DNA of 63,558 nt, taken from positions 1 through 63,558 of the IMG/VR virus record IMGVR_UViG_3300047550_001947. One strand, given 5' to 3'. The notes under the pieces were generated by a model. The model had not been told where the DNA came from. It did not search any database and worked only from the letters and a program-made list of their open reading frames with translations. Below, one piece after another: positions 3,925 to 45,508 of the stretch; position 1 is the stretch's first letter; every line of letters begins with the position of its first letter. A program made the translations under genes and the position numbers. The DNA is from a virus.

Positions 3925-3935
3925 AATATAATAAA

Positions 3936-23860: not shown

Positions 23861-23886
23861 AGGGGAGATAACACTCCCCTTTTTTA
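23861..23886 (+). terminator. Rho-independent terminator at the end of the late operon
   Basis: Perfect 7-bp stem AGGGGAG / CTCCCCT (23861-23867, 23874-23880) with loop ATAACA, followed on the plus strand by a T-run. On the minus strand the tail (TAATATTATTTG) is also T-rich, so it may act in both directions, ending the (-) virion operon right after the stop at 23884. Confidence 0.85.
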
Positions 23887-26800: not shown

Positions 26801-29181
26801 AAACTAAGATTACGGATACCTCTATAGGTTTCCATAAACTTACTAAACATTAATACTCTAGAAATATAATCCGGACTATTTACATACTTAGGATTAGAAG
26901 CATATTTAATAAATGCTTCCAACTCTTCTTTAGAACTATTTAAGAATCTTCCTAAAGCTATATCTGCTTTACCGGAATTTATCTCTGTACTAAGTACAGC
27001 AATTAAACTATTAATCTTATCTATAGTTTCCTTTTTTGGTTTTACTTGTTTAGATGAATCAATAATACTTTGTAAAGCATCTGTACGTTTTACAAGTTGT
27101 GATACAACATCTTTCATAAACATAGAGATGTTTGTATATTGCTCATTAGTTAAACCTGGTTCCGGTTTTTCTTCTTCAGGAGGTAAGAAATTAGGATCAT
27201 TTGTTACATTAAAACCATTCTTTAACTTAAGATCATTAAGTGTATTTTTAAATGGTGCTGTTGGAATTATTCTATCAACATATAAAAGATTCTCAGTTTC
27301 ATTATGCTGTACCACTCCTTCTACTCTAAAACCTTTTACTTTTTGATCTTTACCCTCACCTTCTATGTCTAAGTTATAATGATAAGTAGATACACCGGAT
27401 ACAGGGAATCCATTTATATTAGCTAACTTAGCATAACCCATTACCTGGATACTTTGCTGTTGTTTAGTTGTTAATCTTTGACCTTGTAATAAAGAACCTT
27501 CATTTGTAGGATAGGTTCTTTCATAGTAGTTAGAATCCTTTATACTAGTTTTAGATACTTTTAAATCTACAATATATAGAGACCCATCTGGTTTAATAAT
27601 AAGGAGATCTAAAGAGCCGGCAATCTTAGACTGGTTATCAGCAAGTATTACTTGTGGTAATATTACAGAGCCATCTAATGTAAGAGTAGCTACATAAGCA
27701 CTAAGTGAATCATATGCATCCTCTGCTAAAGAAGGTTCTAATACAGTTACATTTTGTATAGCTTCATCAAATGTTTTACCATCTATAATATCTTGTAGAA
27801 TTCTATCAAAATCTTTACCAAATAATCTATTCAATTCATATAGATTATCTGGATCATTAAGACCACCTTTAATAGCGGAGGTCATAGATTTATATTCTTC
27901 TCCTGTATCTAGATTAACATATGTGTGAGTTGCATCATCCAAAAACATTGGTGTATCATAAAGAACATCAATGATATCTTTTTGCAAATTATTAACAGCT
28001 CTATCTTTAGCTGCTTTTTTACTATACTCTTTCTTTAAATATTCAGGATCTGTCTTACTAATACTGTATTTAGGTAATGATCTTACACTACCTGTAATAG
28101 CTCCTGTTGTAAATCTTAATTCTTCAGTATTTAAAAGCTTTGCTATGTCAGTTAAAGTAACATCGTCCTTTAAATTTTCAGTATTAATATTTAAACTATT
28201 ACCGGTAATTGCTCTGTAAATATCATTTATAAGTTCAGCAAACCACTCTATTAAATCTTTAATAGCACTATCAAAAGATTTACCTGGTTTGTTTTCATAC
28301 TCTTTTTTAAAGTGTCTAGTTAAAGCTTGTGTTACAAGTTCTATATTTCTATAACTTTCAAAAAAGCCTCTTTCATTATTGTAGCTATCTTTAATCTGTT
28401 GAGTTAAAACCGGGAATGTTTTTTGTGCTTCAAATAATAACTTACCAAATATATCAGGTCTGCTAACAAATAAAGCATCTACAACTGGGTGCAGCATTTC
28501 TTCAATTGCGGTCTCTGTTGTAACTCTATTTTTAATTATGTAAGCTGTGTTATTATAGTAAAAACTTTTAATAGCACTAAAGGTAACTTTTTCTTTACCT
28601 ATTTTTGGTAACTGATTATAGATTTTTTCAGCTTCTTCTACAGAAACTAATTTGTAACTAACATCTGGTAATACAGTACTTAAATAATCTAATACATCTA
28701 ATGCATTTGTTCTATTCTTTGACAGAGGAATAATGTCTTGAGGAGTAAACATATTCTCTTTAACAACAAACTCTATACTATTTGTAGTTGGTATAAAGGT
28801 ATATGTCTCTTGAGGTATGTTATTAAAAGTTAGATAGTTAATTATTTTTTGTCTATTACTTCTTAATATTCTTGGATCTGTTTCAGTCATTCCTTCTACA
28901 GTTCCAGTAACATAATATTTTAATTCACCATCTACCCTTGATCCGGATATTAATTTCTCTCTTCTTAAATTTTGCAAAACTGATTCTGCAAATTCCCTCT
29001 TCTTAAGATTAAAGCTTGCTTTTTTAGACTTTACAATTTCTTCAGCTTCTGCAATACTTGGAAATGCTTCTGTATCTTCATTAGATTGGTATTGATCAAT
29101 AATGCTGTCTACAACAATATTATTGTTATAGACATTCATTAAAGCTTTATATTCGGGTAGGTTTCTATTATAACAAGCCAT
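23884..29181 (-). CDS. Giant virion protein with PD-(D/E)XK nuclease and degenerate protease motif
   Basis: 1765 aa, last gene of the late operon and directly downstream of the RNA polymerase gene (3-base gap). Residues about 500-560 form a PD-(D/E)XK nuclease core: KIAGSLDLLII (D525), then LYIVDLKVS (D539-L-K541). At 227-231 EEMLH stands where a zincin HExxH would be, followed by NIELVTQAL, so an inactivated metalloprotease domain is likely. The region near 1530-1560 has LVFQFHKWVYPAYKARFKREY, and a hydrophobic helix occurs near 1620-1645 (LILSSFALAQIIASLVAG). Probably a capsid-internal, co-ejected protein. Domain order is seen; the role is inferred. Confidence 0.7.
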   Translation of the reverse strand: MACYNRNLPEYKALMNVYNNNIVVDSIIDQYQSNEDTEAFPSIAEAEEIVKSKKASFNLKKREFAESVLQNLRREKLISGSRVDGELKYYVTGTVEGMTETDPRILRSNRQKIINYLTFNNIPQETYTFIPTTNSIEFVVKENMFTPQDIIPLSKNRTNALDVLDYLSTVLPDVSYKLVSVEEAEKIYNQLPKIGKEKVTFSAIKSFYYNNTAYIIKNRVTTETAIEEMLHPVVDALFVSRPDIFGKLLFEAQKTFPVLTQQIKDSYNNERGFFESYRNIELVTQALTRHFKKEYENKPGKSFDSAIKDLIEWFAELINDIYRAITGNSLNINTENLKDDVTLTDIAKLLNTEELRFTTGAITGSVRSLPKYSISKTDPEYLKKEYSKKAAKDRAVNNLQKDIIDVLYDTPMFLDDATHTYVNLDTGEEYKSMTSAIKGGLNDPDNLYELNRLFGKDFDRILQDIIDGKTFDEAIQNVTVLEPSLAEDAYDSLSAYVATLTLDGSVILPQVILADNQSKIAGSLDLLIIKPDGSLYIVDLKVSKTSIKDSNYYERTYPTNEGSLLQGQRLTTKQQQSIQVMGYAKLANINGFPVSGVSTYHYNLDIEGEGKDQKVKGFRVEGVVQHNETENLLYVDRIIPTAPFKNTLNDLKLKNGFNVTNDPNFLPPEEEKPEPGLTNEQYTNISMFMKDVVSQLVKRTDALQSIIDSSKQVKPKKETIDKINSLIAVLSTEINSGKADIALGRFLNSSKEELEAFIKYASNPKYVNSPDYISRVLMFSKFMETYRGIRNLSLSNVINPGQRDIAIAVTDLLNIADETIDQAIENFTINFIKTNSTRNFTEEDIKAIITETNDISIADAQLGDLATSTDTILALIDKVYKREKQKIEDDVQQFSERAIAIGNRLASLSNGKPNYDFMLVYDKDNKFTGRYVQKIGYQYYKMFYDLRNNLVDNNGNWLEYINIPNLDDAKVEDIRFNQELYKNRKAYSDFTAAEKVVNGKILDGEFHKYTDEFKKQREKYEEYKNYGWRKKRGVSDAEYAVYRNKYYNYSEYVTAQKEKDGSYLGATTVRKSWFVKPEFKEVREVSENGMSMLDEKYVKIMNPTTELGRAQKEFYEFWLQEFENGALKMLPPSVKKEMTGKLPRQKQNFLNKLKENPASATSLLTKSVSTWFKSFTDAGYQKVVLTDEEGNVIETPPIFFTGKIKSQYVIDKIKTDIQSLQDQFKDGKISTTKYRQQMKELNNQLKRNEALLSKDELNTDLVDSLIKFRAMASNYQHLTSVEDTIFTLKRVVENREYIQSQNVLVRTATGTKAKTIPGAESRTAIRLKKWLKMVYYQEPEFDKTTADNVINKILNATSLSYVGFNIFGNINNYLMGRINNGIETGGGLFYDKKAMLRATNVYNTEYLPGVFKGLASSKGYYGEKDPKSKYEALLYYYRMVDSVAQREVQDKGGLLEWGYVLQDAAETNVQSKVGIAVLMSKQIVNDKGESLSVYDAYDFDPNTGKLTLKPGFEITDNDRYDLRNTIREVNKQIHGNYSAEDRAALQDYSIGKLVFQFHKWVYPAYKARFKREYYDENLGWIEGRYRTFASFMSHIYTARGDIFTKIRDAKQSLREDQLKNLNRVYTELTLILSSFALAQIIASLVAGMDLDDEEDKQLKRLMNALAYQADRQTSELTTFISPANAYMLMKSPIASSKLLGELGEAVSDTFAFPYNYVFDEESLYYKRGSRKGELKLNKQWSDAVPVLYTINRWRSYDNVTDFYVK

Positions 29182-29184
29182 CTC

Positions 29185-32100
29185 TTATAAGTAACATTTT
29201 TTTATTTGTTCTACAAAACTATTTTGATCACCACCAATGGTATTTACAAATTCTTTGTACTGTTGTACAAAATTAACAAATGTTTTAATACCCATTCCCT
29301 CTCTTATTTTATTTCTTTCCTCATCACTAAGCTGTTCGGTATAGAAATTATTAAGAACAGGATACTCTGCCTGAGCTTTAATATTTGCTCCTATACTAGG
29401 ATCAAAAGCCATAGGAGGAGCTGCTGTTACTAATTGATCAATATTATCAAGAGTTTCTTCTGTAGTTTTAGGTGTTAAACTTTTAGCTAATTCTTCAGGT
29501 GATTTTGCAGTAGTTTCAAATGGTTTACCATCTTTCTCATATACAATTTTCTTACCTTCTGTTTTAAAACTAATATTATTAGAAGCTAAAGTATTTGATA
29601 TATTAGCTGGAGCACTACTAAAATCTACATTAGATAATTGTTTTTCTATACCCTGATCAAAATCTATGTTGTTAAGATCAGGTATACCGTTAGGATTACT
29701 TGTAACATCCTTATTTTTTCTGTCTTTAAAAATATCTGTACGACTAGGTACATTTCCAGGTATTACAAAGCCTGCAGCAAATTGTTTTTTAGAACCAATA
29801 GGTGTAAACTTTTCATACTCTGCAGATACACCAAATGCATACATATCACCCGGTTGAATAAGATCAGCTAAGTTTTCTTTTTCTTCTGTTCTATCTCTTT
29901 TTATAGATGTAAGTTTATAATAAACTGTATTTCTATTACCCATTACATACTGCACTGATTTAATCACTAAAGGAAAACCTATTTGAGTTTTATCATTTTT
30001 AGTTTGTAATACAAAACCAGAAGCTCTTAGATATTTTAAATTATATCTATACATTTTTTTACCTTCCTCTGTTAATTTAGAAGGCCCTGGTAAAGAAAGC
30101 ATAGGTTGAACTACTTGGTATTGTCCATTTTCATCAACAATAAACTCATCACCTTTATAGTTAGATACATCTCCAAGAGGTATCATCTCTCTTTCAAAGC
30201 TTGTATTTTTAAATACATTAATTAAAATTTTATCATCAGATTTTACTATAGGAGATGAAACATTTCCCTTTATACCTAGTTCTTGTTTAAACTCTTTTAT
30301 CTCATTATTTTTAGAAATATCTTTTACAGTTTTTGTAAAGAAAGTTGTATTAGTGTTTTGTAAGTAACCTCTAACAAACTCATTATAAAGCTGATTAAGA
30401 TTAGCTCCAAAAGTTTTCTTTACAATAGTATCATTAGCTTTTCCTTTTAAAGCCATTACAGCAGAACTAGATGATTTAAGAATAAGATCAAACATAAAGT
30501 TTGGCATTATTCTAATAAAAGAACCAGATTTAAACTGACCACCATCTTTAACAAGAAGGTAATGAAATAAATCAATAGCATATGGTCTGGTTATTTCATT
30601 ATTGTATAGTTCCATAAAGCTGTACTGAATCTTATTAAGTTGTAACCTACTTAATTTAGTCCAGTTATTAAACTCTACTTTGTTTATACCATCTTTATTA
30701 GATCTATTGGCAGCTGTAATAGCAAATAAGAATTTATTTACAAAGTAATTCTTAGGCGCTAGCTTTCTTAAGTTAAGAACTACATCTGTTACATTCTCCA
30801 TATTATCTGGTAATGTACTTGCAGTTTGATCATAAACCATCCCGTTATTTAAAGATGCCAAAGCTCTTTTGTAACCACCGGTTTTTAATAAATTAACATA
30901 AGCTTTGATAGCAAAGAATGATAACAAGTTCTGATCTAAACTCTTATTAAAGTTTTTACGGTCTTTAGAATTAACTTCTGTATTGGCAATAATAATTTCT
31001 CGCATTCTGTTAACTACAGGTGTACGATTAAGCATTACAGAACCTATTAGAGATTTAATTTCTCTATAAACTGTGAAGTTAAATCCAAAAGTGTTGTTAG
31101 AAGAATTTAAAAGTCTGCGAATATCAAAAGGTATATTACTATTTTCAAATTCTTTATCATTCATTTCTATACCTAGATCTACAGCTTTGTTATAAATTTC
31201 ATCAAATTCTGTAAGATCTTTAGGTAAACCTTTATTTACTTTTAATATAGTTGAAACATTCATAAATGCTTCAGATTGTGCTATTAAAGTTTTGAAATTA
31301 TTTAAAACAGCAGCTTGTATATTAGCATTATTAGTTCTAATACCTTGTTCAAGATCTTCAGTTGAAATGTCAGAAGGTACATCTTCTATAGAATATTCTT
31401 CTAATAACTCTCCAATAATTTTAGCTTGCCCCTTCATTCTATCTTTTTCTTCTGCATAAGAAGATTTATTCTTCTGTAAACGCTTATAGAATTCACGGAT
31501 AGCCGGTTGATTTATAAATAATAAACTATCTTCTAATGATACACCTTGAGCTATCATATTAGCTACAATACCTAGTGAGTTTATATTTAAGTTTAACTTA
31601 GCAGCAAGACGCTCTTTAGCGTTATCTGTCATTGCAGATGTTAAAGCAGATAGTATATAAAATATTCTTTCCCCATCATACTTTCCAGTTTCTGGATTAT
31701 AAGCTTTAGTTTCAGCATAGCTATCAAACTCTTTACCATTAAGTTTAAATCTTAAATTACCTAATTCTATTTCATCACCATTTTCATCAATAAAGAATCT
31801 TGCTTTTCTTATAGTTATATTATTAGTATTTAATAAACTATAAACTAGTAACGCATTTACAGCGGGACCAATGTTTCTAGCACCTTCTTTATTATTTCTA
31901 AAAGCATAGTACTTACCAAGTAGAGTATCTACATTATACTTACCTTCTTCTAACTGATCTTTAAGTTCAGGAAATCTTTCAGTAAAGCTTTTAACAATAT
32001 TAATAAGAGGTTGTACAGTAGCTACCTGGAATGCTTTTGGAATCTCTCCTTCTTTAGCAGTTACCATAGCTGAATTGTTTAATAAAGCAATACGATCATT

Positions 32101-35100
32101 TACAATAATATTATTAAGAGCTCCTTGATAAGGCTCATAACCTAATTTTTGAACTTTATTATTATATTCATCTGCAGTAGATGGTAATCCAAGAGACTGC
32201 AATGCAGCTTTAACAACCTCTTTTTTATCTATATAAGTATCAAATAAATCAGAATCAGATACATCTATATCAAGATCTTGTAAAGCTTCTATTTCATCAG
32301 CTCTCTCTTTTTTAAGAGCATTGTAAAACTCAGAATAAGATTTTCTAAATTCTTTATTTTTACTAAACTGGTACTTTACAAACTGATTAAATCTTTCTGT
32401 CTTACTAGTTCCTGTACCATAAGCTTTAAATTTACCATTCTCTACTAACCATTCTTGAATGACTATGTAAAGTTTATCAATATCAAAGTCAGCTCCAGAT
32501 ATCTCAATAAGTTCTTGTGGGAATATTGCGGATGATCCATAGTACACTGGCATAAAATCTACAAGTTTAAGAGCTACTGCAGAGTGTTTATCCTGTGAAG
32601 GAATACGTGCACCAAACATTTTAGCTACTACATCTGGTATTTTATCACCGGGTTTAATAAAGCTTAATAACTCTTTAAAGTGAGCAGGCATAATAAACTC
32701 AGTAAAGTATCCGGTAATATTACCATCTTTATCATACTCAGGTACATTATGTCTTAAATCATCTATATAATAATCATCTACTTTTAATCCAGTAAAGGTT
32801 CTATTTTCAGGGTCAGAGTATTCTTTAGGAGTACCATACTTAGAAGGATTAAGTTTAAACTCTTCAACTCTTACAATCTCCCATCTCTTTGGTTGACCAT
32901 TCTCATCTAACTCTAGTACTTTTTTAAGTTGCTTTACACCATAGTCAGATACCAATGCTACAGCATGTCCTGGAACTTTTTCAGATAAGACACCTTTAGA
33001 GAAATATGATAAGAACAACTCAACAAACTTATCTATAGTAATAGGTGAGTTAAGATCATACTTAGGTTCTCCTTGCTCATCTAATTCAAAGAACTCAATC
33101 ATTTGAGCATCACCAGCTGAAGATCTTAAAGTTTCAATAGCATATTTCTGGAATGCTGCAAGCTTAGGAGTAACAGATCCAGCAGCTATAGATCTTTTAA
33201 CTTCTTCTAATCCTGAATCTAATGTAAAGATTGCATTTCTCTTTCCAAGATAATTAACTTTAACTCTATTGATAGATGCATCTTGATAAATCTTTTTAAG
33301 ATCACCAACAGTAATATCTTTACCCATAAAGTTTACTATTGTTTCATCATCTTGCTCTGCTGTAAGAATCTGTTTAGGCTGCGTTGGATCAGTAATTACA
33401 ACTTTGTTAGAGGGATTCTCTAATTGTAATCTCCAGTACTTAGTCTTAGTTTCAATAAAATTACTATCAGTGATACTATTTATATCACTAGCTACATTTA
33501 TTTTTTTACCTTTAGATGCAGATGCAGGAACTGCTAAACTTACAGTTTCTTTATCTGCTTCATAAACTTCAAGAGTCTGACGTAGTTTATGCAACTCTTC
33601 TTTACCCGGTAGAGCTTTATCAAAGTTTTTACCATAAGAAGTAAATTCTTTAGTTAATACAAAACCTGAAGTCTTAACATAAGTTTGACCATCAAAGTAA
33701 ACTAACTTAATTGAATTAGTGGCTGCATTAAAAGATACAGCACCTTTAGTTTTCTTATCACCAAAGAAGAAATCACCTGTTACCTCTTCACCATTTTCAA
33801 TTTTATTTAATAACTCAGCTTGTATAGGAGATAACTTACCTAGACCAAATAGTGTATAACGTAAAGCTTTTACAGTCATCCACATTTGAGCATCAGCTTT
33901 ATCTTTCTTACCACCGGCAAACTTAGCTGTAAATTTAGGATCAGAAATAGTAACTATATGAGCAGTTTTAAACTCATGTTTAATACCTAATCTTTCATCA
34001 GTAATAACAGATTCAATATTAGCACCAGTAGCATTTGATCCTTTTGCACGTTTAATTTCATCTACAGGATCTTTGAAAGATATAGCATGGTCACCATGCA
34101 TTAACTGGTTAATAGCAGTGGTATTAATAAAATCATTTACATATATCTGTAAAAGATTATATGCATAATCATTCTTTTTTAAATTATAAACACTATTCTT
34201 AAGAGTATCTTCTACTTTAATTAACTTATTAGATTTTTTAGTAGTTTCTTCTTTATCATCTTTTTTAGAAGGTTTATTAATTTCAAAACCTTTAGTTACA
34301 AAAGCTGCTAAAGCAGATTCCTTTACTTTACCATCTTTTACTTTTAGAATATTATCTTGATCTAATAACTCTAGTAAAAAATTTACATCATCCAACATAG
34401 ATTTAGTAACTTCGTTCTTAATCTGTGTTTTTTGATTTTCTGTTAAAGGTAAGTTTTCTTGAGCTTGTGCTTCTAATTCATTTTTAAAATCTTCACTTAA
34501 TAATTTACCGGTCTTAAATAAAGTAAGACCACGCATCTTACCAGTGTTAAAATCATAAATTTCATCTGTAAATTCACCATTAGCTACTCTTTGAATACGA
34601 TTATACTCTTGTTCTACAAAACCTAATATGGCATTCTTTGCTTCATCAGATAATGTATTTTTACCAGATACTTTAGCAGCAGCTTTGATAACAGGTAGAT
34701 TAACTACATTACCTGTACTTGATGCTTCTAGTACACGGATAAGATGAGTGGATGTACCAAATTCTAAACCGCCTCTTTTTTGTACACCACCTTCAGAATA
34801 TAAATCAATTAAACTAGTGATAAATTCTTCTGGAGAAAAACTACCATAAGTAGTTCCTTCACGTCTGTTAACTTCAAGTTCTTTATTTTCAATTGCCTCT
34901 CCTTCTCCAGTTTCTGTAAGACTACTTACTTTTTGACCATCAATTCTTTTAACTGTAATTAAATCAAGAGATGCTAAGAATTTTGGATTTTTTAATAAGT
35001 AGTTATTTTCCAGGAAAGGATCTTTTAATAACTCTTCAATACCACCAGTTTTCTTAATTTCATTTATTTTAACTAAGTGATAAGATGGTAATTGATGTAC

Positions 35101-38100
35101 ATATACTAACTGACCTTCTGCATTTTTCCAGCTAGTAGCATACACAGACTCATCAAATATAGCATTAACTTTTGCAATATTATATAAACGAGTTGTTGCT
35201 CCACCTTCTAGTATTTCTGTTTCTTCAACAACTTCACCAGTTTCAGGATTTATAGTTGTTTCATATTGCAAATTAATAAATGGATTTTCTCCACTATCAA
35301 TAAGGCCTGATAATATATCTATATCCTCTATTGTTATTGGAGATGCTCCTGAATATAAAGTTATCAGTTTTAACTGATGAGGTGTAAGATTACTTGTATT
35401 TAAATTATTTGATATAGAATAAGCTAAATACATTGGGCTAAGTGAAATACCAAGATTCTCCATTAAAGCTGTAGAAAGCTTATTTGTCTGTACAATAAGC
35501 TCATCATCTGTATATTTCTTAGTAGGAGACATGGCACTTTTAATACCTGTCAATACTAACTTGGCTTTACCTTTTAATTCAGGAGTAACTTTACTTTCAT
35601 AAACACTTGCATATGCCTGTGACCACTGATCAAACTGTACCTTACCTGCATCTTTTCTATTAGCAGAAATAATTAATGCAATTTGTTTCTTAAGGTCTTT
35701 GTTAATAAATAGATAATCAACTGCGTACTGACCAAAACCTTTTATAAAGCTTTGGAATAAATAACTATTTTTAACATTAGATAGATCAGCATTACCTTCA
35801 TCATCAAAAGTTATTCCTGTTTCATTAAAGAACTCTTGAATAACTTTACCAGATTCAAAGTTCTTTTCTTTAAATAAGTTAAGCTTTTCTATAATTTCAT
35901 AAATATCTTCTGACCCGGCAATTGCTTTAAGAATACCATTATAAACTGTAGATCCATCTACTGATTGAATGTAAGGAGTACCATCTAAAAACTGAGTATT
36001 ACCAAAATCATCAGTGGCTTGATATGTAACTGTAGATATAAAAGATCTTAAGAACTTAGATAAACTACCAAAACCACCTACACTGGCAGCACCCTCTGTA
36101 TAGTTTTGCTTACCTCTTTCTCCTAATTCATCTGTAGCATCATCTGAAACATCTTGCTCATTATTTTCTTTAATACTTAGAATAGCTAAATGCTCACGTA
36201 CAGCTTCTTTAAGAATTTCTCTATTCTCAGTTTTGCTAAATATGGCTTTATATTCTTTTAATTTGTTAAGAACTGGAGTATCTAAATCAGCATACTGTTC
36301 TAGATCTGGATCATAAAGTTCTTCATAACTATCCAATACAGAATCTAATAACTCATCAGTATTAGTTTGTTTATCTGCATCTTTAAGTTTGTTATTATAG
36401 ATAGCAGCTACACTTGCAGCTAATCTAGTACCCTCTTGTTCAGGTAAATACTTATCTACTTTAATAAGATTAGATTCACCTTCAGCAGCAAACGTAGAAT
36501 CTTCAATAACTTCTGTACCAATCTTAATAGCTTTAAGTACTGGCTCACTTATATCAAAAGGAGAGTCTGTAAATCTATTTGTAACTACTTTGCTGTTTCT
36601 ATATTTACCAGCATCAATACTTTCAAATAATGATTGTAACTCATTCTTAGTAAATCTGCTAAATAGTTTCTTAATTAACTCAACAATCTTAGCAAATAAA
36701 CTTTTGTTTACATGACTAGTTTCTGTCTTGTTATTCTTTTTCCAGGCTTCAAACTTGTCAGCAAGATATTCTTCATACATTCTCTCCTCTAATTGAGATT
36801 CACTCATACCTGCATAGAGAGGATGTAATAAGCGCATCTCTTCTTTAGCTAAAGAAAATGATTTACCTTCTTTACGCAACTGATCCCTTAACTCTTTTTT
36901 AGCAATTGCTAAGTATCTAGATATTTGTTTATCATTTAATAATAAACGGAATACTGCGTGAAAAGCTTCATGGTATTTAAATGGAGAGCTAGCTGATGTA
37001 TAGATAATACCATTAACTTCTACATTACCAGCAACATTAGATAATGAAGATATAAATGCACCTACAGTTTTACCTTCTTTATATAAGTTATTTTTAAAAG
37101 TTTTTAAATCTTCTACACTTATAAAGTCTGGAAGATTATTTTCTACCCAATTTAAGAACTCTGTAAGATTGGTGATGTCAGATTCTGTATAACCGGCATC
37201 CACCACTTTTAATCCTATAGATTTTTCTAAAACTTCTATCTGACCTTTAATTGCTAATACCTCTGGCGAATTTTCAGCTTGTGTTCTAATTTCTCTTTTA
37301 TCAGCTACAGTTAATTCACCTTTCTCAGCAAGTCTTTGAGCTAACAATACTTTTCTTACTTCATCAGTTTTACTATCAGCTTGAGCTTGTAACTGTTTGA
37401 TTTGCTGAGGAATAGATTTTTGAGCATTAATTAATTTATTTAATGTCTCTGCAGAATTTACTTGAGTAGGTTCTTTAGTTTTTTCTAAAGGTGTTTCTAC
37501 AACAGGTTCAGTTACAGCAGGAGTAGCAGGATTAACCGGTGCAATACCTCTTAACAATTCTGGATTTGCATTTGCAGTAACAGGAGCAGAGCTAAAATCA
37601 ATATTAGAAATATCTACATCTAATACTGCATCTGGAATTTTTGGTAATAAGGGTTGTGCTTGAACATCAGAAGCTTGCTCAAGCATATCTACATATACAG
37701 ATATATCTTTAACTACATTAACTCCTACACTAGATTCCATTTCTAAAACCTGTGTAGTATCAATGCTCTTAGGTAAGGTTGCTTTAAAGGATTTACCAGT
37801 AAGTGCAATATCCATTTTGTTAATTGGATTTTTGGCCTGGTTATCATGTTCTTTAATAGCATTATTTATTAAACTTAATAATCCTGGAAAATCATTAAAG
37901 TCAGGATTATCAATTATTTTTTTACGTTGAATTGGTGAGGTTCTAGAATTTTTATTTACAAAGTCTAAAACTAAAGATCCATTGGGACTAACATAAATAT
38001 CTAAAAACTTACCACGGTCTTTTAAAGGTAAAGCAATAAATAACTTATCACCAATATTCTCTTCATTCCAAATATCATTGTATTCTTGAGCTTTTGGTGT

Positions 38101-41100
38101 ACCATCTTCATTTAAGTTTTCTTTTTTAGTTAGTTCTATTCTTTCTTTAATAGAATTAGCTAGACTATTAAGTTCTTCATTAGAAAGACTTGAAGTAGTT
38201 AATTCAACAAATCTAATCTTACCATTTGGAAGTTTAACAGCAGCTACATATCTACCGTATTTAAGTAATGCATCAGCACCTTTCTTATTGTATCTGGCAT
38301 CATTAACTTCTTTTATGGTAGACTCTAAGGAATCAATATCTATATCTGTAATTGGAGAACCTTCTTCTGTAGTTACAGAACCATTCTTATATTTAATTTT
38401 TCTATCAATTACATATATACCACCATTAATAGTATTATAATTAACCTGAGAAAATTTAGGTCTTTCTTCATCACGAGATAAAAACTCATAAGATCCTAAA
38501 CCAATATTAATATTAGCAACTTTTTTAAGATCTGAATAAGGAATTTCTACAGATGTATCTTTGCCAAGTTTAGATTTTAAATAGTTTAATAAAGCAATTT
38601 TATTTTTATAACTGCTTTTTATATCTGCAACAGCTTGATTATAAGCACCACTTTTTAAATAAAAAACTTGCTTTACTCTATCAGCATTTATTGTATCATA
38701 AGGAATAGGATTTCCTTGACTATCTAAAAATGCAGTGCTAGTAGGATTAGGTAAATAACCAATCTCTTCACCATTATATACTAAAGCAATAGTATAAGGA
38801 TCAGTGAAGAAGCCAAAACTAAAGTTTTCTTTTTCCTCTCCTAGTTTTAAGTAAGCATATCTTTCAGGAGATTTATTATTATTTGAAAATCTTATAGAAA
38901 GATTATTTAAAAGATCTTCAGCTGGAGTATCTCTTAAGAAATTGCTTAATCTAATATTAGCAGCTTCTTGAGATTCATTTGCTTCTTTGTTTCTTTTACC
39001 CCAAGCTTTATCAATAATAGATGTTGAATTAAATCTTGATGTATAAGCTTTCTTTTCTATAGGAGCTCTCTCTAATTTAAATCCTTGAAAACTTTTAACA
39101 GGAGGTAAAATAGCTCCGGTTTTAACATTTTTAAGTTTAAGATTAGAACCCGCAGCAATTTCAGAAGGATAAGAAAGAACTATGTATTCATTATTTTTTG
39201 TATCTGATATAATCTGCCCATTAACTAATGGAACATTATCAAATATAAATTGCTTTTTATTGTTAGCTAAATAATCACCAATTGCTTTCTGAGCTTTCTC
39301 AGCTTTTGTTAAATCCTCATAAAAATCAAAATCAAAATTTAAAAGCTCATTAGGTTTACCAGCAGCATCAATAGCTAAAGTCCCGTCATTTACTTTTACA
39401 AAGTAAATATCAACACCCTCACTTCCTTCAACAGCTGTTGCTGTAACCTTAGTTATAAAAACTCCATTATATCCTTGAGATATAACACTTTCACCTTCTT
39501 CTAAAGATGTTGTAATGTATTGATTCTCATCTCTTTTTTGTATTGATATATCAGAGAAAGTAAGATTATTTTTATCTAATACATCAAATACTATAGGAGT
39601 TCTAGCATTTATTCTAAGCCACTCTTCAAATGGTGGTTTAGTACTATCAACTATATTATCATATGCACTCTCTAATTGTGATACAGCACTCATTACAGAA
39701 TTTGCTTTTTTACTAGAAACAAATTCTTCAAATGATACAGGAATATCAGCTTCCTTTAATGATTTTAAATAATCATCATATAATCTTCTAAGTATATTAT
39801 TAGCAAAGTCACTTGCATATTCTATGTCTTCAGTTCCCTCTTCTATGTCATCAGTACTTTGAGTTCCATAACTATTAGCTGGACCCGCTTCTGTAGCAGT
39901 AGGTTTAACTTCACTATCTGGTTTTACACTATTTTCAAATTTATCAACAAAACTTTTGATAGTATTATATCTAACATCATCTACCCCAAAAAGCTTATTA
40001 CTATTTAGATCTCTAAACTTTATGTCCGGATCATTTAGTATAGCATTTTTTAAACCGTTGAAATTATTTTCATCTAGTTCTTTAAGATATTTAAGATCTA
40101 TAACAAAACCAGTTTTAGCAAGATCTTTTAAAAATAAACCTACCTTACTAGTTTCAGAATATTTTTTAAATGCTTTTGTAAAGTAATCTTTAAAATTTTT
40201 ACTTCTTGCAGCAACTAATAAACTTTCTCTCTGTACAAGATTTGCAAAGTTTTCAGGGTCATACAAACTAGATAAAAGATTTGTAAAGTCTGCTTTATCT
40301 TTATTAAGAGCATAGTAATCTGTAAAGATTCTATATGCTTCATTAATATCTTTAGGAGTTAAGAATGTACCCTTCTCTTCTGTTAACACAGTCATATAAT
40401 CTGTGAAAGCTTTCTTAAGATAAGTTGTTTTTCTTACCTCTGTAGGATCTGTTACATCTTTAACTCTTTCTAAGTTTTTCTTTAAAGACTCAAGGGCTTT
40501 TAACTTCTTCTTTTTATTATTTATAGTTTTTGTTAAAGCAGGATCTGTAGTGTCTTTAGACATCTCTATCTCTGCATTTAACAAATTAATTTCATTATCA
40601 ATAGAATCCATACTAAGAGTGGCAGCAACATCTGAATAGTTTAATTCGGCCACTGATGCTATATTAGCATAACTCTTAGTTAAATCTGTCATCCTTTTTT
40701 TAGCTTGCTCTAAACCATGCAAACTAAATACTGCAGTCTTCTTGGCTTCCTCAAATCCTTTAAAGTTTATAAGCTCTTGAATTTTTTGAGTGATGCCTTC
40801 TGGAGTGTTAGGAAAATATTTATTTGGATTAAATGGATTTTTATATCCACTAAATTGCTCATACTGCTCTTTAACTTGATAAGCTCTATCAATAGTTACA
40901 TCCAAAACTTTTCTAGCTTCTTCATCAGTTACACTATCTGCTAAACCAAAAGCTTGTTTTAATTCAGCTCCGGTCATTTGTTTCATGTCTTCTATCTTCT
41001 TAATAACAAAATCAAACTTGTTAGTCTGAAGAGCAGTGTAGACACTATTAAATCTGGACATGTCTTTAAGATCATGGAAAACCTTTTCATCAAAAGATTT

Positions 41101-42924
41101 TCTGGCCTTAACCATATCCTCACCAAGTTTTACTTGTACAAGTAAGTTCTCTAAATCAGGTTCAGAAAAAATCTTGTTACCATTTTGAATAGCATCATTT
41201 AATTCTGAAGCTATTTTATTTATTCTTTCATCTTCTTCCTGTACAGCTTTCTTATATTCTTCAGGATTTCTTGCTGAAAGATAATTTCTCTTTAATGTAT
41301 TAAAGCCACCTCTGGCTGCACCAGTTGTTATACCAGCTAAACCCCCCATTAAGAAACCAGAAAGAAACACTTCTGCACCTTGTGCTGAAGCTTGATTCTT
41401 TAAATTCTCATAAGCATCTGCTAGATAAGTTACTATACCACCTGCTTCAGGTGTATCATATATTCTATCATAATAATCCTCAGAAGCACCGGCTACAATT
41501 TCCTGACTAAGTTCCTGTAAACCTTCTGTAAGATTTTTAGAGAAATAAGATTTTGCAAAAGAAGCATATGTTTTAGGACTCTTTAAACCACGGATACTTT
41601 CTACAAAAGCATCTTTAGCAGTCATGGTTTCAAACTTACCTGTACGCTCTACAAATCTTGTAACCTTACCAGATAGTTTGGCCTCCTCTAATATAGCAGC
41701 ATCACTACCAGTAATAAGATTCTTTTTACCACCCTTGAATAAATTATCAAAAGTAACAGCATTAGTAAGAAGAATTAAAGGAGCATTTATTAAACCAGTG
41801 GTTGTACCAGCATCAGAAGCAAGTTGATAAATTCTATCCAACTCAGTCTGATCAGGATACTTACCATTGTTTTCTATATATTCATTAATGTGACGATCAA
41901 TAAAATCATTCTTTACTTGACCACCCTCTAAAGCAGATTCACTTGTAGCATATGAAATTTGCTTCATATCTAAAACAAAATCACCAACACCTCTTACAGT
42001 ATTTGCTAATCCAATTACTGGACTCTCTGCAGTTAATATACCTTTAATGTTTACTAAGGTTTTTGGAATAAGTGCTTCCGCTGCAGACTTAGTAAGATTT
42101 AAAGCTCCTTGTGCAACCTTTGCGGCATCAATTGCTTTAATTGTATTGTATGCTTGTCTTGCAGTGTTAGCATCAAACAATGCTGAAATAGACCTCACTG
42201 TTTGTGCAGTTTTAGCTGTACCCGCTGCAACAGCTGCAGGTAATGCAGCACCTTCAGATAAAGCTACAGCTCCTGCTAATAATGCTTCAGTTGCTAAATA
42301 ATCAGCAGCAATACCAGCAATAAATCCAGATTGTAAAATTAAATTAGAAGCAAAACCAGATACACCACCTCTAGTACTACCACTTTCAGCCATGATTTGA
42401 GAAAACTCTCTAGCACCAGTTTCATCTGTCATAGAGAAGTCTCCACTTAACATATCACCTAAACTTCTATAACTAGACTTAACTACAGAAATACCTAATG
42501 CAGGTACTGCAGCAGCAGATCTAAATACATCTTCATACCAAGATCTATTCTGATTATAGATTTGTTCATTATTAATATTTGGATCAAAACCTAACTTATA
42601 AAAGTTATCTTCATCATCATAGTATCTTTCAAAATTACTTTTTTCAAAACCCGGTTGGAAGAACTTACCTTTAGATCTTTGAAAAGCTATATCTCCTTCT
42701 GTAATAGGAGAAGCCTTTACCTGTTTAGCTACATCAAAAGGATTGTTTGGATCATATTGTATCTCAACACCTCCGGGTATACCAGGAGTAGTTAATGTTG
42801 GATCATACGGTACTATTTGATTAAAACCCGGTTGTAAAGAACCGCTTATTGAAGAACCTTCAAAATTAGAAGGTACACCTGGCTCAATTCCTGGAGTAGG
42901 AATAGTATTCTCTAATTCTTCCAT
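29185..42924 (-). CDS. Giant virion RNA polymerase polyprotein (crAss-like)
   Basis: 4579 aa. At D3479 the sequence GADFDIDKLYIV gives the DFDID metal-binding motif of the single-chain crAss-like virion RNA polymerase (phi14:2 gp66 type, two double-psi barrels in one chain). At 1985-1989 HEAFH, followed by EERMYEEYLADKF, marks a zinc metalloprotease. The first 600 residues contain long Ala/Gly-rich hydrophobic segments (about 195-240 and 520-545), as in ejected pore-forming proteins. The motif SN[I/V]DFSSAP occurs twice (D1776 and D4434), flanking the protease-polymerase part. Phi14:2 gp66 is about 2180 aa, so this protein is roughly twice as long. It would be packaged, ejected and transcribe early genes. 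Polyprotein processing is inferred. Confidence 0.88.
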   Translation of the reverse strand: MEELENTIPTPGIEPGVPSNFEGSSISGSLQPGFNQIVPYDPTLTTPGIPGGVEIQYDPNNPFDVAKQVKASPITEGDIAFQRSKGKFFQPGFEKSNFERYYDDEDNFYKLGFDPNINNEQIYNQNRSWYEDVFRSAAAVPALGISVVKSSYRSLGDMLSGDFSMTDETGAREFSQIMAESGSTRGGVSGFASNLILQSGFIAGIAADYLATEALLAGAVALSEGAALPAAVAAGTAKTAQTVRSISALFDANTARQAYNTIKAIDAAKVAQGALNLTKSAAEALIPKTLVNIKGILTAESPVIGLANTVRGVGDFVLDMKQISYATSESALEGGQVKNDFIDRHINEYIENNGKYPDQTELDRIYQLASDAGTTTGLINAPLILLTNAVTFDNLFKGGKKNLITGSDAAILEEAKLSGKVTRFVERTGKFETMTAKDAFVESIRGLKSPKTYASFAKSYFSKNLTEGLQELSQEIVAGASEDYYDRIYDTPEAGGIVTYLADAYENLKNQASAQGAEVFLSGFLMGGLAGITTGAARGGFNTLKRNYLSARNPEEYKKAVQEEDERINKIASELNDAIQNGNKIFSEPDLENLLVQVKLGEDMVKARKSFDEKVFHDLKDMSRFNSVYTALQTNKFDFVIKKIEDMKQMTGAELKQAFGLADSVTDEEARKVLDVTIDRAYQVKEQYEQFSGYKNPFNPNKYFPNTPEGITQKIQELINFKGFEEAKKTAVFSLHGLEQAKKRMTDLTKSYANIASVAELNYSDVAATLSMDSIDNEINLLNAEIEMSKDTTDPALTKTINNKKKKLKALESLKKNLERVKDVTDPTEVRKTTYLKKAFTDYMTVLTEEKGTFLTPKDINEAYRIFTDYYALNKDKADFTNLLSSLYDPENFANLVQRESLLVAARSKNFKDYFTKAFKKYSETSKVGLFLKDLAKTGFVIDLKYLKELDENNFNGLKNAILNDPDIKFRDLNSNKLFGVDDVRYNTIKSFVDKFENSVKPDSEVKPTATEAGPANSYGTQSTDDIEEGTEDIEYASDFANNILRRLYDDYLKSLKEADIPVSFEEFVSSKKANSVMSAVSQLESAYDNIVDSTKPPFEEWLRINARTPIVFDVLDKNNLTFSDISIQKRDENQYITTSLEEGESVISQGYNGVFITKVTATAVEGSEGVDIYFVKVNDGTLAIDAAGKPNELLNFDFDFYEDLTKAEKAQKAIGDYLANNKKQFIFDNVPLVNGQIISDTKNNEYIVLSYPSEIAAGSNLKLKNVKTGAILPPVKSFQGFKLERAPIEKKAYTSRFNSTSIIDKAWGKRNKEANESQEAANIRLSNFLRDTPAEDLLNNLSIRFSNNNKSPERYAYLKLGEEKENFSFGFFTDPYTIALVYNGEEIGYLPNPTSTAFLDSQGNPIPYDTINADRVKQVFYLKSGAYNQAVADIKSSYKNKIALLNYLKSKLGKDTSVEIPYSDLKKVANINIGLGSYEFLSRDEERPKFSQVNYNTINGGIYVIDRKIKYKNGSVTTEEGSPITDIDIDSLESTIKEVNDARYNKKGADALLKYGRYVAAVKLPNGKIRFVELTTSSLSNEELNSLANSIKERIELTKKENLNEDGTPKAQEYNDIWNEENIGDKLFIALPLKDRGKFLDIYVSPNGSLVLDFVNKNSRTSPIQRKKIIDNPDFNDFPGLLSLINNAIKEHDNQAKNPINKMDIALTGKSFKATLPKSIDTTQVLEMESSVGVNVVKDISVYVDMLEQASDVQAQPLLPKIPDAVLDVDISNIDFSSAPVTANANPELLRGIAPVNPATPAVTEPVVETPLEKTKEPTQVNSAETLNKLINAQKSIPQQIKQLQAQADSKTDEVRKVLLAQRLAEKGELTVADKREIRTQAENSPEVLAIKGQIEVLEKSIGLKVVDAGYTESDITNLTEFLNWVENNLPDFISVEDLKTFKNNLYKEGKTVGAFISSLSNVAGNVEVNGIIYTSASSPFKYHEAFHAVFRLLLNDKQISRYLAIAKKELRDQLRKEGKSFSLAKEEMRLLHPLYAGMSESQLEERMYEEYLADKFEAWKKNNKTETSHVNKSLFAKIVELIKKLFSRFTKNELQSLFESIDAGKYRNSKVVTNRFTDSPFDISEPVLKAIKIGTEVIEDSTFAAEGESNLIKVDKYLPEQEGTRLAASVAAIYNNKLKDADKQTNTDELLDSVLDSYEELYDPDLEQYADLDTPVLNKLKEYKAIFSKTENREILKEAVREHLAILSIKENNEQDVSDDATDELGERGKQNYTEGAASVGGFGSLSKFLRSFISTVTYQATDDFGNTQFLDGTPYIQSVDGSTVYNGILKAIAGSEDIYEIIEKLNLFKEKNFESGKVIQEFFNETGITFDDEGNADLSNVKNSYLFQSFIKGFGQYAVDYLFINKDLKKQIALIISANRKDAGKVQFDQWSQAYASVYESKVTPELKGKAKLVLTGIKSAMSPTKKYTDDELIVQTNKLSTALMENLGISLSPMYLAYSISNNLNTSNLTPHQLKLITLYSGASPITIEDIDILSGLIDSGENPFINLQYETTINPETGEVVEETEILEGGATTRLYNIAKVNAIFDESVYATSWKNAEGQLVYVHQLPSYHLVKINEIKKTGGIEELLKDPFLENNYLLKNPKFLASLDLITVKRIDGQKVSSLTETGEGEAIENKELEVNRREGTTYGSFSPEEFITSLIDLYSEGGVQKRGGLEFGTSTHLIRVLEASSTGNVVNLPVIKAAAKVSGKNTLSDEAKNAILGFVEQEYNRIQRVANGEFTDEIYDFNTGKMRGLTLFKTGKLLSEDFKNELEAQAQENLPLTENQKTQIKNEVTKSMLDDVNFLLELLDQDNILKVKDGKVKESALAAFVTKGFEINKPSKKDDKEETTKKSNKLIKVEDTLKNSVYNLKKNDYAYNLLQIYVNDFINTTAINQLMHGDHAISFKDPVDEIKRAKGSNATGANIESVITDERLGIKHEFKTAHIVTISDPKFTAKFAGGKKDKADAQMWMTVKALRYTLFGLGKLSPIQAELLNKIENGEEVTGDFFFGDKKTKGAVSFNAATNSIKLVYFDGQTYVKTSGFVLTKEFTSYGKNFDKALPGKEELHKLRQTLEVYEADKETVSLAVPASASKGKKINVASDINSITDSNFIETKTKYWRLQLENPSNKVVITDPTQPKQILTAEQDDETIVNFMGKDITVGDLKKIYQDASINRVKVNYLGKRNAIFTLDSGLEEVKRSIAAGSVTPKLAAFQKYAIETLRSSAGDAQMIEFFELDEQGEPKYDLNSPITIDKFVELFLSYFSKGVLSEKVPGHAVALVSDYGVKQLKKVLELDENGQPKRWEIVRVEEFKLNPSKYGTPKEYSDPENRTFTGLKVDDYYIDDLRHNVPEYDKDGNITGYFTEFIMPAHFKELLSFIKPGDKIPDVVAKMFGARIPSQDKHSAVALKLVDFMPVYYGSSAIFPQELIEISGADFDIDKLYIVIQEWLVENGKFKAYGTGTSKTERFNQFVKYQFSKNKEFRKSYSEFYNALKKERADEIEALQDLDIDVSDSDLFDTYIDKKEVVKAALQSLGLPSTADEYNNKVQKLGYEPYQGALNNIIVNDRIALLNNSAMVTAKEGEIPKAFQVATVQPLINIVKSFTERFPELKDQLEEGKYNVDTLLGKYYAFRNNKEGARNIGPAVNALLVYSLLNTNNITIRKARFFIDENGDEIELGNLRFKLNGKEFDSYAETKAYNPETGKYDGERIFYILSALTSAMTDNAKERLAAKLNLNINSLGIVANMIAQGVSLEDSLLFINQPAIREFYKRLQKNKSSYAEEKDRMKGQAKIIGELLEEYSIEDVPSDISTEDLEQGIRTNNANIQAAVLNNFKTLIAQSEAFMNVSTILKVNKGLPKDLTEFDEIYNKAVDLGIEMNDKEFENSNIPFDIRRLLNSSNNTFGFNFTVYREIKSLIGSVMLNRTPVVNRMREIIIANTEVNSKDRKNFNKSLDQNLLSFFAIKAYVNLLKTGGYKRALASLNNGMVYDQTASTLPDNMENVTDVVLNLRKLAPKNYFVNKFLFAITAANRSNKDGINKVEFNNWTKLSRLQLNKIQYSFMELYNNEITRPYAIDLFHYLLVKDGGQFKSGSFIRIMPNFMFDLILKSSSSAVMALKGKANDTIVKKTFGANLNQLYNEFVRGYLQNTNTTFFTKTVKDISKNNEIKEFKQELGIKGNVSSPIVKSDDKILINVFKNTSFEREMIPLGDVSNYKGDEFIVDENGQYQVVQPMLSLPGPSKLTEEGKKMYRYNLKYLRASGFVLQTKNDKTQIGFPLVIKSVQYVMGNRNTVYYKLTSIKRDRTEEKENLADLIQPGDMYAFGVSAEYEKFTPIGSKKQFAAGFVIPGNVPSRTDIFKDRKNKDVTSNPNGIPDLNNIDFDQGIEKQLSNVDFSSAPANISNTLASNNISFKTEGKKIVYEKDGKPFETTAKSPEELAKSLTPKTTEETLDNIDQLVTAAPPMAFDPSIGANIKAQAEYPVLNNFYTEQLSDEERNKIREGMGIKTFVNFVQQYKEFVNTIGGDQNSFVEQIKKCYL

Positions 42925-42943: not shown

Positions 42944-45508
42944 TTATTGAATATTGTCAAAGTTACTTAGGAGAGTGTTAAAATTATATATATTCAGATT
43001 AGGATCTGTATATACCTCAATCATATTTGTACGGGGATTAAATGCTGTTCCAGAAGCATAAATACTCTGATCAGGTTTTTTAGTAAATGTAACATCAATT
43101 CCAGCATTTGGATTCATATATCTATATGACCCAGAAGTATTTAATATCACTTCTCTATCACTAGTGTTTATTCTTTGAGAAATATAATTTGTAGCACCAC
43201 TTGTAGGTATAATAGCTGTAATACCTTTTGCAATAACTTGATTATATAAATCTTCATTGCTTTCTTTTAGATTCTTCATTATCTGACTAGATGCTGAAGG
43301 TCTAATTATTAATGCTTGATAATCACTACTACCAAGTGCACGTCCCTGATAACTGTATGAAATAGTTGACTTAGAAGCTCTTGCATCACTAGCTAAAGTA
43401 TTTAATAAAGCCCTCATTTCTGAGTTATCTTCTATCGAATTAAAATCTCTACCACTTGCTTGAGCAATATCTGCAGGAGTTCCAATACCAATTCTAGAAT
43501 CACTATTTAAAGCATCATCTAATGCACCTTTAAATCCAGATGTAACCTTAGACATAGGTTTAGAAAAATCTGCAACACCGCTTACACTATTAGAAATATA
43601 CTCACCGGCAGCACTTCTTCCAACAGGTTTATATCCAGTTTTATTTTTTGATAAATCAGTGTACATATCTTGATAGTCATCCATAAAGTCTTCATAATCA
43701 TCCATAAAGTCTTCTTTATCAATGACTATATTTTTTGCTCTAGCTGCTTCACTAGCAACTTTATATGCACCATTAGCATCTCTTAAACTACCATCTTTTG
43801 CAAAGACATAATCTAAAAACTCAGGAACATATGCCTTAGAAGCTCTCAGATTAGCAGCAATTATTTTATTATTGCTTGAAATAGCAGATATATTACTATA
43901 TGCTAACTGTCTACTATCATTTACTCTACTAATAATTCCAGATAAACTTTTTAATAAACCAGGATCAGCTTTTGTAACATCTAATACTTGATTAAATATA
44001 TTATTTAATGTTGTAAGACCTACTTTGTTTGATTGAATATCTTGAATAGTAAATCCAGAACTTTTTAATATTTTTTCTGTAGCTGCTCTAATACCTGTAT
44101 CATTAGTGTTAAGAAGAGTATTCATTAACTCATAAGTGTTAGCAGAAAGATTAGCCCAGCTATTATTAAATTCAGCTCTATCTCCAACTGTAGCATCATC
44201 CATTGAAGCTTCTGTCTTTACAGTGCTTGATGAAAAATCATCAAATCCTCCAAGTTCCATCATCTTCATCTCTCTTTCAAAGTCCTGTTCAATTTTTTCT
44301 TTCTTTAACCAATAAGAAAAATCCAGGGCTTTTTCAAAACTTATTTGTTTAAATGGATCAGCCTTTACAGATACTTGATAATCTTTATAAGCTTGTACCT
44401 GTGTTGCTTTAGATATTTCATTAGAAATAATACTTGAAGCCATAGAAGATCTGCTAACTCTTGATAGCATATCTATATCTTCATTACTGATAGCATCAGA
44501 GATTTGATTTAATCTTTGTTCAACACCAGTTATAGCATTCTCATATAAATTTTTTCTTGCTACTATTTGACTATATTCAGTCTGTTCTTTTTGATTAAGT
44601 CTACCACCTCTATTTATTTTAGATTCATAGATATTAACTTTAGCATCTAATAGATCATATTCAGATTTTAAATCTTGTAGTTTATTTTCATCATTAGCTA
44701 CAAACTTATCTGCACTACCTAAATAGTATTCTGTTTTTGCTTGATTAATATCACCATCATATTTAGATGAAGCAATCTGCATTATATCATCCATTGATTG
44801 TACATATGCTAGTTCACTTGCATAATCTTTAACCATTGGATCTCTACCTAATGTTTCTCCTAAAAATTGAGATATAACATTTACAGATTTTGGACCACCA
44901 GTAGTAGTAACTAAATAATTACCTCTCTGCTCTTCTATTTTTATATCTTTAAAATCATCTCCAACAAGCTCTTTAGCTTTTGCCATTATATTTACATAAG
45001 GTACATACTTTGGCAAATTCATTTTATAAGCTGAATCTGGAGAAGCTCCTTTAAATTCTAATAATCTATAATCAATACCTCTAACACCTTCAGCCCAGTA
45101 TTTACCTGCTATTTCTGCATTAACAGAGTTTCTAAAACTTTCAGCTCTTTGTTTACCATCTTTACCAGCTTTTGTAAACATTACATCATACTGCATTTTT
45201 TTATCTTGTACAAAAGGTTCAAACACCTGTTGTGCAAGCTCAACATTTTTTGGATCAGAAAGATCCATAGATGTTATTTGCTGTATATTTTTTTGAGCAT
45301 TATTTAGAAAGTTTTTTCTGCTTTCAATATTCTCATCTCTTGTAAGATCTGCATTAATGATACTTCCATATACACCGCTTAATTGATCTATAGCACTATT
45401 ATATCTTGCCTGTTTAGTGGCAAGTACACTATTGAGAAAATCAAAATTAGGTTTATAAGGCTCTGCCTTTGGAATATAATCAGTTAAACCTTGTATAAAA
45501 GTAGCCAT
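42944..45508 (-). CDS. Large virion protein, probable capsid cargo (854 aa)
   Basis: Highly charged and mostly helical with long coiled-coil-like stretches (about 265-345). The first residues IQGLTDYIPKAEPYKPNFDF and Gln-rich helices resemble internal or ejection proteins. DFSSS occurs at D424, the same short motif as in the polymerase and the 1369-residue protein. No enzymatic motif is visible. Directly upstream of the polymerase gene in the late operon with its own promoter-like TATATTTG box. Co-ejected cargo or scaffold is the best guess. Confidence 0.6.
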   Translation of the reverse strand: MATFIQGLTDYIPKAEPYKPNFDFLNSVLATKQARYNSAIDQLSGVYGSIINADLTRDENIESRKNFLNNAQKNIQQITSMDLSDPKNVELAQQVFEPFVQDKKMQYDVMFTKAGKDGKQRAESFRNSVNAEIAGKYWAEGVRGIDYRLLEFKGASPDSAYKMNLPKYVPYVNIMAKAKELVGDDFKDIKIEEQRGNYLVTTTGGPKSVNVISQFLGETLGRDPMVKDYASELAYVQSMDDIMQIASSKYDGDINQAKTEYYLGSADKFVANDENKLQDLKSEYDLLDAKVNIYESKINRGGRLNQKEQTEYSQIVARKNLYENAITGVEQRLNQISDAISNEDIDMLSRVSRSSMASSIISNEISKATQVQAYKDYQVSVKADPFKQISFEKALDFSYWLKKEKIEQDFEREMKMMELGGFDDFSSSTVKTEASMDDATVGDRAEFNNSWANLSANTYELMNTLLNTNDTGIRAATEKILKSSGFTIQDIQSNKVGLTTLNNIFNQVLDVTKADPGLLKSLSGIISRVNDSRQLAYSNISAISSNNKIIAANLRASKAYVPEFLDYVFAKDGSLRDANGAYKVASEAARAKNIVIDKEDFMDDYEDFMDDYQDMYTDLSKNKTGYKPVGRSAAGEYISNSVSGVADFSKPMSKVTSGFKGALDDALNSDSRIGIGTPADIAQASGRDFNSIEDNSEMRALLNTLASDARASKSTISYSYQGRALGSSDYQALIIRPSASSQIMKNLKESNEDLYNQVIAKGITAIIPTSGATNYISQRINTSDREVILNTSGSYRYMNPNAGIDVTFTKKPDQSIYASGTAFNPRTNMIEVYTDPNLNIYNFNTLLSNFDNIQ

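Follow-up and report, generated by a model that had tools for sequence, protein, structure and literature searches.

Wherever the gene block of the crAss-like virion RNA polymerase is split between its proteins A (gp47-like), B (the gp50/gp66-like polymerase) and C (gp49/gp65-like), the two chain ends that face the break carry a cysteine, and wherever two of these proteins are fused the cysteines are gone. Among 134 sequence clusters, a terminal cysteine was found at 302 of 310 break-facing ends versus 0 of 211 ends without a facing break, and facing cysteines are absent at fused junctions, a pattern that would be expected of a disulfide-linked head-to-tail chain. By their sequences, A, B and C can be read as one virtual polypeptide that is cut genetically at zero, one, two or, rarely, three places. 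The best explanation is probably a disulfide-linked A-B-C thread in the virion, which would be reduced after entry and in which a peptide bond would substitute for the disulfide upon gene fusion.

In the window (the whole analysed stretch of viral DNA, 63,558 bases), A and B form a single uninterrupted frame, which the initial annotation had described as a protein of 4579 residues and which runs on the minus strand from an ATG at 42924 to 29185 (Table 1). The ORF is considered real because 4580 open codons do not arise by chance and because it is kept in relatives: the same ORF, with YHEAFH and DFDID conserved, is present in nine IMG/VR relatives. Judged by homology, its product is a crAss-like virion RNA polymerase (B) fused to the neighbour protein A. 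The polymerase identity had been proposed from the sequence, and a profile search agrees: a B profile from 10 relatives (1193 columns) has 6vr4, i.e., phi14:2 gp66, as its sole PDB match (E = 1.1e-17), in three collinear stretches with DFDID among them. Residues 3000–4579 matched 102 phage records by tblastn, nearly all of them crAss-like. Both annotated motifs are where they had been placed, and neither type recurs elsewhere in the 4579 residues: HEAFH (1985–1989) is the sole HExxH, and DFDID (starting at D3479) the sole DFDxD. Pfam, PHROGs and phmmer-PDB searches with the single 4579-aa chain gave nothing useful and profiles alone worked. An AlphaFold model of residues 2760–3959 (alignment of 10 relatives), where two double-psi barrels would be expected, had a mean pLDDT of 55. 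An N4-like virion RNA polymerase was ruled out, since the chain has no Pfam or PHROG match to a T7-type single-subunit polymerase domain and shows DFDID and 6vr4 homology instead.

The composition of the chain is apparent from profile-profile comparison (hhalign). Residues 304–664 of the A half match gp47 residues 251–639 (97.9%, E = 4e-13), the zincin region matches the gp47 family as well (98.6%, E = 8e-16), and the C-terminal half matches the gp50 family in three blocks (96.7–98.6%). In these comparisons, the N-terminal half has no match in gp50 and the C-terminal half none in gp47; the chain is therefore A fused to B, and the two parts meet somewhere between residues ~2115 and ~2260. The annotation had noted that the phi14:2 polymerase gp66 is about 2180 aa long, which is correct (2180 aa), and that the window protein carries over 2000 extra residues. 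These residues are present, but they correspond to the homologue of protein A in an ordinary gene fusion. Such A+B fusions are not new and already occur in public Suoliviridae genomes as ORFs of 4491–4946 aa; according to a review, crAss-like RNA polymerase genes reach about 6000 aa (PMC10136315). The position in the genome is that of the A-B-C transcription block, with the C homologue of 1765 aa next and, upstream on the same strand, neighbours that PHROGs classify as virion structural proteins. As for the N-terminal hydrophobic, pore-like region of the initial annotation, some hydrophobic segments do exist, but the signal is weak: Kyte-Doolittle maxima reach 1.3–1.65 near residues 188–237 and 519–537, and weak segments of a comparable kind are found in crAss001 gp47 and phi14:2 gp67. 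Near relatives of this phage lie on contigs of up to 97–131 kb, so that the window probably covers only a portion of a genome. With the cr55_1 polymerase as query, IMG/VR yielded no relatives.

Table 1. Features of the A-B-C block in the window; a slash marks a gene break.
Feature	Position	Strand	Basis
A+B fused protein, 4579 aa (gp47-like + gp50/gp66-like virion RNA polymerase)	29185..42924	-	profile-profile comparison
A module, residues ~1–2115, crAss001 gp47 homologue	36580..42924	-	hhalign
HEAFH zincin motif, residues 1985–1989	36958..36972	-	invariant YHEAFH in the window clade and across crass families
EEYLAD, residues 2051–2056, with a Glu as probable third zinc ligand and an ExxxD	36757..36774	-	conservation
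B module, residues ~2260–4579, RNA polymerase catalytic protein (gp50/gp66 homologue)	29185..36147	-	hhalign, 6vr4
DFDID catalytic motif, residues 3479–3483	32476..32490	-	motif search, profile match to 6vr4
Cys4577, sole cysteine of the 4579-aa chain, third from the C-terminal end, facing the B/C break	29194..29196	-	
C protein, 1765 aa, homologue of crAss001 gp49 / phi14:2 gp65	23884..29181	-	
Cys3 of the C protein (MACYN...), its sole cysteine, facing the B/C break	29173..29175	-	
Upstream protein, 854 aa, no cysteine, outside the cysteine-marked chain	42944..45508	-	cysteine count

The cysteine rule was derived from 194 loci (designated by L numbers) taken from annotated phage records and IMG/VR; clustering by a core of 300 aa, with 80% identity as the threshold, left the 134 clusters. 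Gene layouts were typed by positions and a C-domain HMM, and a terminal cysteine was scored within the first 10 or the last 12 residues. The break-facing ends that carry one comprise 100/101 C-terminal ends of B or AB, 99/101 N-terminal ends of C, 51/54 N-terminal ends of B or BC and 52/54 C-terminal ends of A. Among the ends that face no break, none of the N-terminal ends does so (A, 0/38; AB or ABC, 0/50; together 0/88), and neither do the C-terminal ends of C (0/100) or of BC and ABC (0/23). In three-gene phages, the sole cysteine of A lies close to its very end, within a few residues; B carries two, at residue 3–5 and within the last nine, and C has one at 3–5; in phi14:2, for example, these are gp67 C1797, gp66 C3 and C2179, and gp65 C3. 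With A and B fused, the A-B cysteine pair is absent, and chains with B and C fused retain the N-terminal cysteine and have a C-terminal end without one. The median number of cysteines per block is four for A/B/C (n=31), two for AB/C (n=44) and zero for ABC (n=4 complete chains of 5220–5639 aa, all of them cysteine-free, as are further partial or near-duplicate ABC chains). The gut A/BC clade breaks this median pattern, with one break and a median of 16 cysteines; it provides weaker evidence for the rule because its chains contain many internal cysteines (2.3 per 1000 residues).

Outside that clade, internal cysteines are scarce, with 0.57 per 1000 residues in A/B/C, 0.08 in AB/C and 0.00 in ABC layouts, compared to 9.8 per 1000 in the other ORFs of the same loci, of which 14/265 have a cysteine in the same N-terminal and 41/265 in the same C-terminal window. 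Because the block is so poor in cysteine, the chance of finding one in a 12-aa end is below 1%. In three loci (L077, L088 and L114), the A/B break precedes the zincin domain rather than following it, and a cysteine is present at each of the two new ends; since the pair flanks the relocated break, it is tied to the break and not to a particular domain. It is common for genes in the block to abut or to overlap by a few bases, so that the cysteines could in principle be an artefact of gene boundaries (start/stop overlap or ribosome-binding sequence) or of start-codon choice. However, the A gene of crAss001, cr128_1 and DAC15 lies on the opposite strand and its product still ends in a cysteine, which makes the rule independent of gene overlap and refutes the artefact for A. 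Moreover, in the window clade a stop codon stands no more than a few codons before the start of C, and equally tight N-terminal ends of A and C-terminal ends of C have no cysteine. An origin in gene boundaries is therefore highly improbable.

All eight misses were read singly, and each has an individual explanation. Two are frameshifts (L190, whose true end is HIKKCYLK, and L171, whose sister L172 is whole), two entries belong to L175, a short AB chain with a mistyped layout, and two (L006 and L080) start at an upstream ATG, while their likely starts carry a cysteine. In L088, the cysteine of A is 18 residues from the end. The last miss, L132, has an additional 390-aa protein between AB and C (L132:15130-16299), whose two ends each carry a cysteine (MKCPN...NNTCA), and C of this locus appears to begin at a GTG (xTCQLHRK); the extra protein may be seen as one more chain link that still obeys the rule.

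How often the layout changed was estimated from a FastTree phylogeny of 129 polymerase cores, which has at least seven changes of the A-B state and at least four of the B-C state, with the reservation that nine layouts counted as A/B/C lack a neighbouring A upstream within the available sequence; in four of them, a likely A lies on the opposite strand. In independent pairs, cysteine follows the state in a mean of 4.8/6 (A-B) and 3.4/4 (B-C) cases, and the reverse never occurs. With 6 and 4 pairs only, phylogenetic sign tests are not significant alone, and as FastTree joins long branches readily, no formal significance is claimed from the tree.

Facing cysteines vanish once the proteins become one chain, as would be expected of a disulfide standing in for the peptide bond. 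According to the model that we consider probable, the facing terminal cysteines at each break would pair as a disulfide in the virion, the disulfides would join A, B and C into a continuous head-to-tail thread, and this thread would pass in order through portal and tail tube, before the reducing host cytoplasm opens the disulfides and frees the polymerase subunits. In fused genes, the peptide bond would do the linking and the cysteine pair would be lost, as for A and B of the window phage, whose sole remaining link would join Cys4577 of AB to Cys3 of C. For phi14:2, the rule predicts the pairs gp67 C1797–gp66 C3 and gp66 C2179–gp65 C3, and for crAss001 the pairs gp47 C2339–gp50 C5 and gp50 C2404–gp49 C5.

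Two other readings would leave the cysteines without a covalent partner. They could be independent tags, such as a packaging signal or a lipid or envelope anchor; every split protein has at least one terminal cysteine, and the positions vary by a few residues, as they might in a tag. However, ABC chains also need packaging and yet have no cysteine at all, and the cysteines occur at break-facing ends only, never at the N-terminal end of A or the C-terminal end of C, so that tags appear unlikely. Slightly more doubtful still is a non-covalent encounter, e.g., around a metal (Zn or Fe-S) that is shared where two subunits meet. This likewise predicts paired cysteines at breaks and their loss upon fusion, but each end provides a single cysteine with no other conserved cysteine or obvious conserved histidine beside it, and two thiols alone make a poor site.

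The disulfide thread itself faces some difficulties. Many hosts are anaerobic and phage assembly is cytoplasmic, which makes the timing of oxidation problematic. Furthermore, cysteine avoidance persists in fully fused ABC chains and in the N4 virion RNA polymerase (no cysteine in 3500 aa), which implies that the avoidance as such has another cause; for N4-like polymerases, it was suggested that they are cysteine-free perhaps for passing tail and periplasm (PMC3715699). In favour of the model, disulfides were described in the crAss001 virion (portal-vertex dimer, tail hubs, rings and gp57), and its cargo proteins were suggested to leave by way of portal and tail in a partly unfolded state; for every RNA polymerase protein, six copies were deemed possible (PMC10172136).

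Near the C gene, the window also encodes a thioredoxin-like protein of 120 aa (22125–22487, minus strand), which has a hydrophobic helix at its N-terminal end. Its match to Pfam Thioredoxin (E = 3.8e-4) is just below the curated cut-off, and WPGVT stands at the usual WCGPC site, i.e., the redox pair is lost.

The zincin of the window AB chain is, by homology, the C-terminal domain of A. In separate A proteins, YHEAFH lies close to the end as well (residue 2157 of 2341 in crAss001 gp47, 2169 of 2322 in cr112_1 and 2327 of 2474 in Dulem 41), and YHEAFH together with a downstream E-E is invariant across eight sequences from the window clade, Steigviridae, Suoliviridae and Dulem 41. Within the window clade, the downstream EEY..D is conserved, so that the AB chain combines HExxH with a conserved downstream Glu, the putative ligand of a gluzincin-type site. 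The best PDB profile match of the region, the Pro-Pro endopeptidase 6fpc, is weak (E = 0.018) and extends over the motif; a Pfam search of the region gave no zincin match, and an AlphaFold (AF2) model from 10 relatives had a pLDDT of 55.

A protease in the same chain as the polymerase had led the initial annotation to suggest self-processing after assembly or ejection; on this reading, the zincin would cut the 4579-aa chain and thereby part A from the polymerase. The motif is indeed intact at the junction of A and B in 53 of 54 AB/C clusters, and zincin metallopeptidases fused to N4-type virion RNA polymerases were proposed to process them, although the N4 polymerase is packaged unprocessed (PMC5512222). 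Elsewhere in the sample, the zincin is on a separate A protein in crAss001, cr112, cr128 and Dulem 41 and on the B side of the A/B break in L077, L088 and L114, whereas A of most phi14:2-type phages has no zincin motif and their C often has an HExxH instead. For a self-cleaving polyprotein with a protease in cis, the fully fused ABC clade is the telling case: it should need processing most, and yet all ABC fusions of the L098–L118 clade have only YWEAFR or YWESFR, decayed forms of the motif. Because the zincin is separate, on the B side, missing or dead elsewhere, cutting the fused chain is not its conserved job; as a release protease tied to fusion it fails on the ABC chains, and self-processing of the window protein seems improbable. 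In the ABC chain L121, the zincin motif was not found in the corresponding region.

A second zincin may once have been present in C. Intact HExxH motifs occur near the N-terminal ends of phi14:2 gp65 and the C protein of cr55_1, and C of L012 has FHEYLHPF where the window C protein, around residue 230, reads EEMLHPVVDALF (EEMLH); the second zincin of the window C protein is probably decayed. Farther along the same protein, near residues 520–545, a stretch resembles PD-(D/E)xK by eye. In the AB chain, the motif N-[IV]-D-F-S-S-A-P occurs twice (residues ~1774–1781 and ~4432–4439), in both cases in a fast-diverging linker, one before the zincin and one before the C-terminal tail, and variants of both copies are retained in L008–L010. 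The repeat is possibly a site of docking, packaging or cleavage; cleavage was set aside, as the motif is conserved in the closest relatives only.

Several observations concern the wider sample and the rest of the window. The ABC clade (L098, L099, L101, L104, L109 and L115–L119) has a single cysteine-free ORF of ~5500 aa with YWEAFR or YWESFR. In L017 (cr4_1), the polymerase ORF contains 38 and C 18 in-frame stops in the standard code, which indicates a recoded stop codon; recoded stop codons are known for some delta phages. The polymerase ORFs of L079 and L093 are interrupted about 119 codons past DFDxD, L081 was also noted near DFDxD, and split polymerase genes likewise occur in the public records PQ006092 and cr116_1; the breaks near DFDxD are probably introns. 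In the replication block of the window, a metallopeptidase/VWA protein (DUF2201; 7180–8343, plus strand) stands before a protein that by eye resembles a MoxR-type AAA ATPase (8355–9539, plus strand), a pair with a possible chaperone-like role.

Crassviruses, which rank with the most abundant viruses in the human gut, have to bring several proteins of 150–300 kDa through a narrow tail in the right order. If the chain model is true, it would fix a 1:1:1 stoichiometry and the order of the cargo, and it would constitute a rare, repeated evolutionary exchange of disulfide and peptide bond. The evidence tips towards the more general proposition that Crassvirales inject a single reversible covalent thread in which gene fusion and disulfide are interchangeable in evolution. 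To our knowledge, no phage system has been described as a disulfide-concatenated protein thread that is released by reduction. The cysteine rule also provides a simple means to recognise the genes for A, B and C where genomes are divergent or interrupted by introns. The literature searched does not mention cysteines, terminal or paired, for crAss-like polymerases; outside of it lie the phi14:2 structure paper and Yutin 2018; while the A+B fusion is known, the rule appears to be new, but an earlier mention cannot be fully excluded.

Among the known systems, gp65-gp66-gp67 of phi14:2 (Steigviridae) have the homologous DFDID polymerase and the same A, B and C neighbours, but in three separate genes, whereas A and B form one chain in the window phage; moreover, gp67 has no HExxH, and gp65 carries HEIMH. 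Closer in layout are the Suoliviridae (delta) phages cr4_1 (4491 aa), cr55_1 (4551 aa) and cr118_1 (4946 aa), which share the A+B fusion, YHEAFH with DFDxD, and a cysteine near the C-terminal end, fourth from the last, but are only distantly similar in sequence and have one to six internal cysteines; the database entries of these ORFs name a hypothetical protein or a DNA helicase. CrAssphage ZA (Intestiviridae, MK238400) has the same A, B and C content, annotated as "RNAP associated protein fused to zincin protease" and "RNAP catalytic subunit fused to unknown RNAP subunit", but with B and C fused, A separate and more internal cysteines. Outside the crassviruses, the N4-like (Schitoviridae) virion RNA polymerase gp50 is likewise giant, packaged in the virion, injected, free of cysteine and equipped with a zincin (PMC5512222), yet it is an unrelated T7-type polymerase in a single chain, and N4 gp51 and gp52, unlike A, B and C, have no terminal cysteine pairs. 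Finally, gp96 of Thermus phage P23-45 (5002 aa) also combines a two-barrel virion RNA polymerase with membrane segments and a metallopeptidase in one giant chain, but this chain belongs to a long-tailed phage and includes its tape-measure protein (PMC10770324).
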